DNA from: Streptomyces flaveolus
Lineage (GTDB): Bacteria; Actinomycetota; Actinomycetes; Streptomycetales; Streptomycetaceae
Reading direction: 5' to 3'
Assembly: GCF_000716535.1 (NCBI RefSeq)
Contig: NZ_JNWV01000073.1
Span: forward strand, 1 to 21,344
DNA: 21,344 nucleotides
Of the stretch, positions 12,066 to 19,675 are shown piece by piece. Positions within the stretch are counted from its first letter, which is position 1. Every line of letters starts with the position of its first letter. The translations under genes and the position numbers were made by a program. The notes beneath the pieces are model-generated. The model ran no database searches and was not told the origin of the DNA. It saw only the letters and a list, made by a program, of their open reading frames with translations.

Positions 12066-12989
12066 TCAGTCTGCGTGCCGGAACCCTGTGACAGGTCTCA
12101 CTTCCTGTGCCCGCCCCCGCCCGAGTGCCGTGGTAGGCCGGCCGTGACCGAAGGCGGCCTCGACGAAGCACTGGTCGTGGGCCGCCTGGGCGCCGTGCCG
12201 CAGGGCGCGCTCCAGCGAGGGGCGGGACGGCGGATCGCGGCGGGACCAGCCGTCGTGGAGCAGGGACACCGCGAAACCGGCGAGGAACGCGTCACCGCAG
12301 CCCATGGTGTCGGCCATGGTCCGGGTGTCCGCCGGGCGTGCCGGAGCCGTCACCAGGGTCCGGCCGTCGTACACGGTGGCCCCCGCCAGGCCGCGGGTCG
12401 CCAGGACCATACGCGCTCCCCGCGCCACCACGGCTTCCAGCAACCGTCGCGTGGCCGCGTCGTCCAGGTCCGAGCAGGACAGCAACGCCAGGTCGAGGTG
12501 GGGGCAGACCCGGTCGAGGTAGGCGGGGGAGCGGAACTCCTCGTCGTCGGAGAGGTCGAAGCTGACCAGGGGGCCGGCCGCGGCGAGCCTGGGCAGTTCG
12601 CTCTCGGTGTGCGAGTAGACGCTGGAGTGCACGAGCGAGAACGACGCCGCGTACGCCAGCAGGGCATCGTCCAGGACGAGCGGTTCGCGCACGGTGACAC
12701 CGCCGCCGTTGTAGCCGAGGAACACCCGGTCGCCGTCCCGCACGTGGAGGGTGGAGACGCCGGACTCGCCGTGGCGCACCACGCTGCGCTCGACCGCGAC
12801 GCCCTGGGCCGCCACGGCCGCACGGAGGAAGGCACCGAGGTCGTCGTCGCCGAACACCCCCAGATAGGCGGCGTCGAGACCGAGACGGCGGGCGTACACG
12901 GCGACGTTGACGCAGTTGCCGCCCGGGTAGTCGATGCCGCGGTCCACGAAACGGTCCACGACGTTGTCGCCGAAACCGAGGATGTTCAT
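12066..12989 (-). CDS. frlD: PfkB-family sugar kinase, fructoselysine 6-kinase-like (FrlD-like)
   Basis: A 307-residue ribokinase/PfkB kinase. The ATG at 12989 has GGAG six bases upstream; a TTG one codon earlier is less likely. The protein opens MNILGFGDNVVDR and has YPGGNCVNVAVYARRLG (21-37), closely resembling the GDN(C/V)VD and SGGNAVNVAVY segments of enteric FrlD. VFGDDDLGAFL (45-55) and the HSSVYSHTESELPRL segment (121-135) also parallel FrlD. The catalytic and anion-hole motif is DTMGCGDAF (227-235), with Asp233 as base. FrlD phosphorylates fructoselysine at C6 using ATP. The last 25 or so residues (Arg/Gly-rich) extend beyond the usual end. The gene follows the deglycase gene after 114 bases, completing the kinase-deglycase pair. 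The exact sugar-amine substrate is not known. Confidence 0.85.
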   Translation of the reverse strand: MNILGFGDNVVDRFVDRGIDYPGGNCVNVAVYARRLGLDAAYLGVFGDDDLGAFLRAAVAAQGVAVERSVVRHGESGVSTLHVRDGDRVFLGYNGGGVTVREPLVLDDALLAYAASFSLVHSSVYSHTESELPRLAAAGPLVSFDLSDDEEFRSPAYLDRVCPHLDLALLSCSDLDDAATRRLLEAVVARGARMVLATRGLAGATVYDGRTLVTAPARPADTRTMADTMGCGDAFLAGFAVSLLHDGWSRRDPPSRPSLERALRHGAQAAHDQCFVEAAFGHGRPTTALGRGRAQEVRPVTGFRHAD

Positions 12990-13005
12990 CAAAGACTCCA
13001 GGGGC

Positions 13006-13035
13006 GCGGGCGCCGCGTGGGTGCGCGGCGCCCGC
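13006..13035. terminator. First of two hairpins between frlB-like and frlD-like genes
   Basis: GCGGGCGCCGCG (13006-13017) and CGCGGCGCCCGC (13024-13035) form a perfect 12-bp stem with a 6-base loop. It lies in the 114-base gap inside the operon, about 16 bases before the FrlD-like start and adjacent to its ribosome binding site. It could be an internal terminator, an mRNA stability element or a brake on kinase translation. Confidence 0.6.
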
Positions 13036-13039
13036 TCGG

Positions 13040-13069
13040 GGCGTGCCGGTGCAGGGGCTCCGGCACGCC
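13040..13069. terminator. Second of two hairpins between frlB-like and frlD-like genes
   Basis: GGCGTGCCGG (13040-13049) and CCGGCACGCC (13060-13069) form a perfect 10-bp stem with a 10-base loop. It is the first of the pair met by RNA polymerase after the frlB-like stop. No T-run follows on either strand. Confidence 0.58.
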
Positions 13070-13103
13070 GGGGCGGATGGAGGCGGGGTGGGACGGACCG
13101 CGG

Positions 13104-18348: not shown

Positions 18349-18451
18349 CGCGGAGACCTCCGGAGTTCGGATAGGGGCGGAACGGGCGACCGTCGGCAGG
18401 GCGCGGACGGCCGTCCGGGGGACGGCAGACGGAGCCTTCTGGCGGGCAGAA

Positions 18452-18467
18452 TTGATAACGTTACCAA
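18452..18467. promoter_or_regulatory. LacI-type operator between divergent lacI-like gene and transporter operon
   Basis: TTGATAACGTTACCAA is a 16-base palindrome with one mismatched pair around a central AACGTT, the typical form of LacI/GalR-family sites. It lies 126 bases before the regulator start and 104 bases before the ATPase start, so a single bound dimer could control both directions. Confidence 0.78.
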
Positions 18468-18481
18468 CGCGCTCGTACCTT
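18452..18481 (+). promoter_or_regulatory. Promoter of the LacI-family regulator gene
   Basis: TTGATA (18452-18457) as -35, an 18-base spacer, and TACCTT (18476-18481) as -10. The -35 is the left half of the palindromic operator, so the regulator would repress its own gene. The promoter for the minus-strand operon is not clear to me. Confidence 0.5.
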
Positions 18482-18577
18482 ACCCACGCCCCGCGGCCTT
18501 GCGTCAATGGTTGAATGGCGCTGAATGCCATCGAGCCGTTCCCCGGCGTTCGCCGGCCTGACACGGAAAGACCGGAG

Positions 18578-19675
18578 ATGCCCCCTGAATCGCAGCCGCG
18601 GCGCCGCGTGACCATCCCGGACGTCGCCCGGCACGCCGGTGTGGGACAGGCGACGGCCGCACGCGTCCTCGGCGGGTACGGATCGGCGAGCGCGGCCACC
18701 CGGGAGCGGGTGCTGGCCGCCGCCGCCGAGCTGGGCTACAGCACCAACGCCGTGGCACGCAGCATGATCAGCGGCCGCACCGACACCCTCGGAGTGGTCG
18801 TCGCCGACGTGGAGAACGCCTACTTCGCCCGTGCGGTGCGCGGCATCGCCGACGTCGCGGCCAAGGCGGGGCTGCAGGCCATCCTCGCCAACAGCGACGA
18901 GGACAGCGAGAAGGAGAAGGCCGCGGTCCAGCTGTTCATCGAGCGGCGCGTGGACGGGCTCGTGGTGGCGCCGGCCGCCACCGACGACGAGCACCTCGCC
19001 CGCGCCGTCTCCGCCGGCATCCCGGTGGTGCTGCTCGACCGGGTGCTGGCCGGTGCCACGCTGGACACGGTGGTCGTGGACAACCGGGGGGCGGTGAAGG
19101 CGGCGGTGACCCGGTTCACCGAGGCGGGACACACCCGTATCGCGGTGATCACCTCGGCCATGCCGGGTGACGACGGCATCCGTCTGGCGCCGGGCGCGGA
19201 CATCTGGACGACGACGGAACGTGTCGCCGGCTACCGCCAGGCCCTGCGGGCGGCCGGCATCCCGCGTTCCGCGGAGCTGATCCGGCACACCGGGTACGAG
19301 CGGGGTTGGGCGCGGTCGGCCGTACTGGAGCTGATGACCTCTCGCGACCGCCCCACCGCCCTGTTCACCACCGACAACGTGGCGACGCTCGGCACCCTGG
19401 ACGCCCTGCTCGACCTCGACGCCCGCATCCCCGGCGACGTCTCGGTCATCGGCTTCGACGACGCGGAATGGACCACGCTCATCCGGCCGCGGCTGAGCGT
19501 GGTCAGCCAGCCCGTGCAGGAACTGGGCGGCCTGGCCGCGGACATCCTGATCCGCCGCATCAACGGAGCGGCTGCCCGTCCCCGCCGGCACACCCTGAAC
19601 ACGACGTACATCGCCCGTGAGTCGACAGGGCCGGTACCCGCTCGCGTACGACGTCTACGGGCGCCGACGGACTGA
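18578..19675 (+). CDS. LacI-family transcriptional repressor
   Basis: A 365-residue regulator. I chose ATG 18578 because GGAAAG lies about six bases upstream and the protein then opens MPPESQPRRRVTIPDVARHAG; a reading from 18515 adds 21 residues and lacks a ribosome binding site. The helix-turn-helix is VTIPDVARHAGVGQATAARVLGG (11-33), with the hinge helix NAVARSMISGRT (57-68). A periplasmic-binding-protein-like effector domain follows: LGVVVADVENAYFARAVRGI (71-90), DGLVVAPAATDDEHL (126-140), IPVVLLDRV (148-156), and near the end DVSVIGFDDAEWTTLIRPRLSVVSQPVQELG. It probably binds the operator at 18452-18467 and is released by a sugar-amine or its phosphate (inference). Its position next to the transport/catabolic operon supports local control. 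Confidence 0.93.
   Translation: MPPESQPRRRVTIPDVARHAGVGQATAARVLGGYGSASAATRERVLAAAAELGYSTNAVARSMISGRTDTLGVVVADVENAYFARAVRGIADVAAKAGLQAILANSDEDSEKEKAAVQLFIERRVDGLVVAPAATDDEHLARAVSAGIPVVLLDRVLAGATLDTVVVDNRGAVKAAVTRFTEAGHTRIAVITSAMPGDDGIRLAPGADIWTTTERVAGYRQALRAAGIPRSAELIRHTGYERGWARSAVLELMTSRDRPTALFTTDNVATLGTLDALLDLDARIPGDVSVIGFDDAEWTTLIRPRLSVVSQPVQELGGLAADILIRRINGAAARPRRHTLNTTYIARESTGPVPARVRRLRAPTD

Follow-up and report, generated by a model that had tools for sequence, protein, structure and literature searches.

A 21,344-nucleotide stretch of Streptomyces flaveolus DNA (contig NZ_JNWV01000073.1, positions 1 to 21,344; hereafter the window), high in GC and part of a 10.35-Mb genome, carries a putatively LacI-controlled operon that, judged from sequence comparisons, probably serves the uptake and splitting of an Amadori-type sugar-amine. 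Six genes run on the minus strand from 18348 to 12066 in the order potA-potD-potB-potC-SIS-pfkB, facing a plus-strand lacI gene (18515-19675). They code for a PotA-like ATPase (17155-18348), a PotD-like binding lipoprotein (15867-17141), a PotB-like permease with a GTG start (14995-15903), a PotC-like permease (14153-14998), an SIS-domain protein that is a probable fructosamine-6-phosphate deglycase and likewise starts with GTG (13104-14105), and a FrlD-like kinase of the PfkB family (12066-12989). Open reading frame coordinates place all of these genes, the run in one direction and the divergent lacI where the original prediction, made from the letters alone, had put them. Its junction lengths were also correct, with 13 bases between potA and potD, overlaps of 37 bases (potD/potB) and 4 bases (potB/potC, ATGA), and 47 bases between potC and the SIS gene; it left out the 114 bases that separate the SIS gene from pfkB. 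The lacI-potA gap is 166 bases.

In the route we propose, the lipoprotein would bind a fructosyl-amine, as its family suggests, and PotABC would import it; the PfkB kinase would phosphorylate the sugar at C-6, the SIS enzyme would split the 6-phosphate into glucose 6-phosphate and the free amine, and the substrate or its 6-phosphate would release LacI. The original prediction had read the operon as an actinobacterial route for a sugar-amine conjugate. This gains from the linkage of importer, deglycase and kinase and from a receptor that is not of the ordinary kind, but among the loci collected here the arrangement occurs only in Streptomyces and Streptantibioticus.

Conservation of the operon and its sister clusters

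Searching genome contigs with the SIS protein gave 107 relatives, from which 80 loci were kept, all actinobacterial by title, and identities reach 98% in named Streptomyces. Fourteen of the 80, all titled Streptomyces, have a layout that we term type A, with lacI divergent from potA-potD-potB-potC-SIS-pfkB; it is also found in Streptantibioticus cattleyicolor. The full set of seven genes, lacI plus six, is present in 12 of the 80 SIS loci and partial in two more (L013 and L057), which are apparently decaying or rearranged type-A copies without lacI and potA, L013 also being without the start of potD.

The other 66 loci, from Streptomyces, Nonomuraea, Microbispora, Agromyces, Arthrobacter and others, have a second layout, type B. 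Their SIS proteins are 62-86% identical to that of the window and, as in the window, pfkB comes after the SIS gene (64/66). Unlike type A, they have a CUT1 sugar-type importer, a downstream lacI (61/66) and, in 53 loci, a FrlC-like gene; the exceptions in the placing of pfkB and lacI are short loci near contig ends. A CUT1-type binding protein is encoded in 65 of the 66, divergent upstream in 61 and downstream in four, and in the 66th (L041) the SIS gene lies 495 bases from the contig end. None of the 14 type-A loci shows a CUT1 or FrlC-like match scoring at least 80 bits. Because type A is without these matches while 65 of the 66 other loci hold a CUT1 binding protein, type A amounts to an exchange of importers on a fructosamine kinase-deglycase module of actinobacteria. 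The six-gene order, which was to be sought across actinobacterial genomes, is thus conserved in Streptomyces (14/80) and Streptantibioticus but does not extend to the actinobacteria as a whole.

The joint occurrence of importer, deglycase-like and kinase-like genes beside one lacI, as originally proposed, is borne out in 392 genomes of the same genus, Streptomyces, with at most four candidates scored per genome. A close PotD (at least 80% identity) is present in seven of them, the next best reaching at most 40% among the matches listed, and a close SIS protein (at least 89%) is present in those same seven genomes, on the same contigs and about 3 kb from PotD. Also among the matches listed, five other genomes have an SIS protein of 81-83% identity without a close PotD, and nine have one of 31-34%. 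In 12 of the 14 type-A loci a close lacI occupies the equivalent position. Elsewhere in the S. flaveolus genome there is no further close relative of the SIS gene, and none of the FrlC-like gene or the type-B CUT1 binding protein. As to origin, a Pot-type importer akin to those of putrescine/agmatine-type operons would have replaced the CUT1 importer of the common actinobacterial cluster, together with FrlC, and the pocket would afterwards have adapted to the ligand already used by the enzymes.

In loci from Agromyces and Leucobacter, another SIS deglycase gene, distinct from the first, lies 3-5 kb away from it, and a second sugar-amine substrate is possible there. These additional genes lie at 569-1579 in L056, 4690-5700 in L059 (where there is also another PfkB match), 4497-5507 in L072, 4597-5607 in L073, 14074-15084 in L075, 14112-15119 in L081 and 14104-15111 in L082.

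The enzyme pair and the binding-protein pocket

Family membership of both enzymes is clear, with the SIS domain (PF01380) scoring 50 bits against a cut-off of 25 and the PfkB family (PF00294) 88.8 against 25.8. The best structural matches of the SIS protein are PDB entries 2a3n (262 bits), deposited as a putative aminotransferase, and 3eua (153 bits), deposited as a putative fructose-aminoacid-6-phosphate deglycase, others scoring about 120 bits; we take 2a3n to be Salmonella GfrF, from its locus name and the equivalence of STM4535-40 with gfrABCDEF. The label FrlB/FraB-like, given to the SIS protein at the outset, stands insofar as FrlB is its best NCBIfam model, but among the proteins compared it is nearer to a Priestia SIS protein (45.4% identity) and 2a3n (39.6%) than to Escherichia coli FrlB (27.2%), the remaining identities being 40% to an Enterococcus SIS protein, 32% to 3eua and 31% to an SIS protein of a Ti plasmid. 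The kinase is 38% identical to its Ti plasmid counterpart and 37% to E. coli FrlD. The Glu of an E-M/F-x-W motif and the His of an HG motif, presumably catalytic in SIS deglycases, are present in all 11 alignment rows shown.

In an SIS tree with some long branches and joins flagged as unsure, seven type-A rows form a clade (support 99/92) nested in the type-B radiation, outside of which lie 2a3n, the Priestia and Enterococcus proteins and a clade that joins rhizobial SIS proteins to a second actinobacterial group, with E. coli FrlB distant. Of the alignment positions conserved across type B, type A has a different fixed residue at only 1 of 205 in the SIS protein, a start-codon artefact, and at 3 of 145 in the kinase. 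Since the two enzymes are nearly without layout-specific fixed changes, both layouts very probably share the same chemistry.

In the importer, PotA reaches the subfamily model TIGR01187 (384.5 bits, cut-off 355.6) and falls short of the PotA equivalog NF006987 (392 against 482), and the permeases and binding protein match the PotB, PotC and PotD models best while scoring below the equivalog cut-offs (PotB 188 against 348; PotC 233 against 326; binding protein 123 against 582 for PotD and 103.6 against 636 for PotF). The fold and the best structure-backed matches of the binding protein are those of polyamine receptors. Like PotABCD and PotFGHI, the system has the same gene set and keeps the acids at PotD D168 and D257 and PotF D247, plus PotD T35, Y37 and W255; unlike in those systems, the full set of polyamine-binding residues is not present, PotD W34, E36, S83, Y85, E171, W229, Y293 and Q327 being changed. 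In the numbering of the window's binding protein, the kept residues are Y83, D228, D294, W317 and D319 and the changed ones Y80, Q82, G142, Q231, Y291, F355 and L403.

We compared 39 type-A binding proteins (the window's and 38 relatives, whose operon context is known only for those also in a fetched locus) with 85 comparison proteins (82 plus three loci). Ordinary PotD proteins from 22 of 23 loci entered the comparison, 9-10 of these being gapped at most pocket columns. Conserved ligand positions are switched in type A at 8 of 13 sites, against 28 of 174 positions elsewhere. Type A has lost two aromatic-box tryptophans and a distal carboxylate, the latter replaced by Gln, but retains at three positions the acids that bind amines in PotD or PotF, so the suggestion that the amine part drives recognition is half borne out. 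D228, D294, D319, W317 and Y83 are present in 38 of the 38 type-A proteins counted, and all 39 share a gained D144; none of the positions with a gained Arg, Lys or His (74, 161, 342 and 348) is a mapped pocket position. These comparisons support the view that the binding protein differs from ordinary polyamine receptors and that its pocket has been rebuilt. The 38 relatives, at least 67% identical to it and named, where a name is given, as polyamine or spermidine/putrescine binding, may accordingly be mislabelled.

Regulatory elements and flanking genes

The regulator has a LacI helix-turn-helix and a sugar-binding domain, both above the Pfam cut-offs (LacI and Peripla_BP_3). A 16-bp palindrome at 18452-18467 (TTGGTAACGTTATCAA, minus-strand reading) is the single LacI-type site in the lacI-potA gap and a putative operator. 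The identical 16 bases recur in 12 of the 14 type-A loci, the remaining two being those without lacI and potA. With up to two mismatches, it is matched in two type-B loci (L084 and L086), where the core is different, and in none of the other 64. A scan of the whole genome found the window palindrome as the sole site with at most one mismatch, so a wider regulon under the same operator was rejected, and the simplest reading is that LacI acts locally on its own operon. Just upstream of the operator lies a probable operon promoter, TTGACG-N19-TAAGGT (18477-18507, minus strand), read by eye, as the pattern scan covered spacers of 16-18 nucleotides and did not report this 19-nucleotide site; in an alignment of the window and 12 loci, TTGACG is kept in 13 of 13 and TAAGGT in 12 of 13.

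The gap between the SIS gene and pfkB (12990-13103, minus strand) folds as two hairpins (z -5.0), which recur in relatives, the consensus fold of 13 sequences having 25 pairs, four of them with changes on both sides (L016 and L019 were dropped from the original 15). A hairpin of 14 pairs with a T-rich tail 3' of pfkB (12008-12039, minus strand) is the probable operon end; four terminator-like sites were found in the scan, against 1.4 expected in shuffles. No Rfam family reaches its gathering threshold in the window.

The aldehyde dehydrogenase gene beyond pfkB (10438-11877) was considered as an operon member and rejected, since it sits past the terminator-like hairpin and is preceded by a palindrome-bearing promoter-like site of its own. 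This site (TTGACT-18-TATCTT, inside 11998-12039) overlaps the hairpin, and the 19-bp palindrome between its hexamers (12003-12021), which lies partly in the hairpin, looks like a repressor site. An aldehyde dehydrogenase match directly after pfkB is found in none of the 14 type-A loci, L007 having one 2.5 kb farther on. In the left half of the window are two large regulator-like genes; that at 7592-10318 codes for AAA_16 and LuxR-type domains, and that at 2096-4828 is similar at its start, by eye only.

Candidate ligands and related systems

Several observations weigh against a sugar-amine operon. Both enzymes fall short of their NCBIfam equivalogs, the SIS protein scoring 109.2 against 430 for FrlB and the kinase 173.4 against 247 for FrlD, so that each is FrlB- or FrlD-like by best match only. 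The S. cattleyicolor SIS protein, from a type-A locus, falls outside the seven-row type-A clade, by weakly supported forks, and a single swap is therefore not proven. Two type-A loci are missing lacI and potA, and the kinase gene may not be tightly coupled to the SIS gene, given the 114-base gap that folds into hairpins. Some pocket changes are not peculiar to type A: all 12 alignable ordinary PotD proteins of the same genus have Tyr at the PotD W229 position, as do 10 of the 85 comparison proteins, and both comparison groups have likewise lost the E36 acid. Unchanged enzymes are also no proof of an unchanged substrate, as the deglycase may be lenient on the amine side.

If the operon does serve a sugar-amine, the ligand could be the Amadori product of an amino acid (fructosyl-lysine, -arginine or -glutamine), as for Bacillus subtilis FrlB/FrlD and Agrobacterium deoxyfructosyl glutamine (DFG), to which we give slightly less than an even chance. 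The unchanged enzymes favor the ligand class of the type-B clusters, most of which carry a FrlC-like gene, and hence a fructosyl-amino acid. B. subtilis FrlB/FrlD prefer alpha-glycated amino acids (PMC12632257), DFG is present in decaying plant material (PMC4231840), and Enterococcus GfrF, termed an FrlB homologue, acts on fructoselysine 6-phosphate (PMC12735817). However, the mapped pocket positions have gained no basic residue that would suit a carboxylate. An initial idea, that the enzyme is a Heyns-type (glucoselysine) deglycase, was dropped because the GfrE and GfrF assignments in PMC12675984 conflict, its text and a figure legend giving the two enzymes opposite substrates, and PMC12735817 assigns GfrF the fructose form; a Heyns compound may nevertheless be the substrate.

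The sugar-amine could instead be a glycated cationic amine or polyamine such as fructosyl-putrescine, with polyamine-binding acids kept, room gained for the sugar, and an amine released along with glucose 6-phosphate, which we regard as unlikely. The acids kept in every protein counted and the gained D144, the placing of all gained basic residues off the mapped pocket, and kinship to polyamine-operon importers (binding-protein relatives with readable context lie in polyamine-type operons in two of three loci) favor a cationic amine. Against it, the enzymes are unchanged despite the change of importer, and the distal carboxylate of PotD/PotF has become Gln. The literature searched, whose coverage leaves out most subscription journals, yielded no mention of glycated putrescine, spermidine or polyamine and no published report of the type-A layout. 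A bolder proposal, which on the sequences at hand we think rather improbable, is that bacteria have a pathway devoted to polyamines or other cationic amines in glycated form, in which a polyamine receptor turned into one for the sugar-conjugated amine and was coupled to a fructosamine kinase and deglycase, independently of the Ti opine systems.

That an ordinary polyamine importer merely sits beside a sugar-phosphate module is suggested by the receptor's fold, its best matches and the names of its relatives, but we consider it very unlikely, as a close PotD occurs, in the 392 genomes, only where a close SIS protein does (7/7), the pocket is rebuilt and a single operator heads the whole set. 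An amino-sugar operon, with the SIS protein an amino-sugar phosphate isomerase or deaminase, has the least going for it, its GlmS (58.8 bits) and NagB-II (39.5 bits) matches being weaker than those to 2a3n and 3eua, the kinase being FrlD-like and FrlC-like genes accompanying most sister loci.

The combination of parts seen in this probable sugar-amine operon has a precedent. One Ti plasmid was compared (NC_002377, which we take to be octopine-type), and it carries in one block a LacI gene (annotated as two pieces) divergent from genes for an SIS protein, a 'fructoselysine 6-kinase', a PotA-type ATPase, a binding protein and two permeases. The window's operon thus agrees in gene content with the Agrobacterium Amadori and mannityl-opine systems. 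The gene order, SIS-kinase-peptidase-Pot-type importer on the Ti plasmid, is another one and includes an extra peptidase gene; beyond the SIS protein and kinase, identities are 21% for the binding protein, 44% for PotA and 30% for the permeases. The binding protein of this block matches AgtB (6hly) and the adjoining one MotA. At 31% (SIS) and 21% (binding protein) identity, and with the SIS protein on a separate branch, orthology to the Agrobacterium proteins is not supported. Because the parts on the Ti plasmid agree in kind but are far apart in sequence from those of the window, the layout looks convergent, and Pot-type importer and fructosamine module have most simply been joined at least twice. 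In the tree, the Ti SIS protein joins a third SIS type of the genus Streptomyces, whose module has a CUT1 importer in three of four loci read. A Streptomyces locus, L158, has a Ti-like SIS and kinase pair followed by two hydantoinase-subunit-like genes (by eye) at 9565-15280, and none of its listed reading frames matches an importer.

Other known systems differ in uptake. The Salmonella and Enterococcus Gfr system shares with the window an SIS protein whose best PDB match is 2a3n, but, as described in PMC12675984 and PMC12735817, a phosphotransferase system takes up and phosphorylates the substrate, so that a kinase of its own is missing. The same deglycase and kinase classes are found in E. 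coli frlABCDR and B. subtilis frlBONMD; unlike the window, the former has FrlA and FrlC and the latter a FrlONM importer, the FrlC epimerase being missing from all 14 type-A loci and without a close relative in the S. flaveolus genome. In Intestinimonas, a four-gene ATP-binding cassette importer has been modelled with a kinase and a deglycase (PMC4697335); that importer could be Pot-type, which would lower the novelty of the layout.

The two layouts amount to a natural experiment in which two kinds of importer serve nearly the same kinase-deglycase module. The rebuilt pocket lends itself to a residue-level comparison with PotD and PotF, making a path from polyamine receptor to sugar-amine receptor testable. 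For some soil actinomycetes, the operon would be a predicted route to the glycated compounds of decaying matter.

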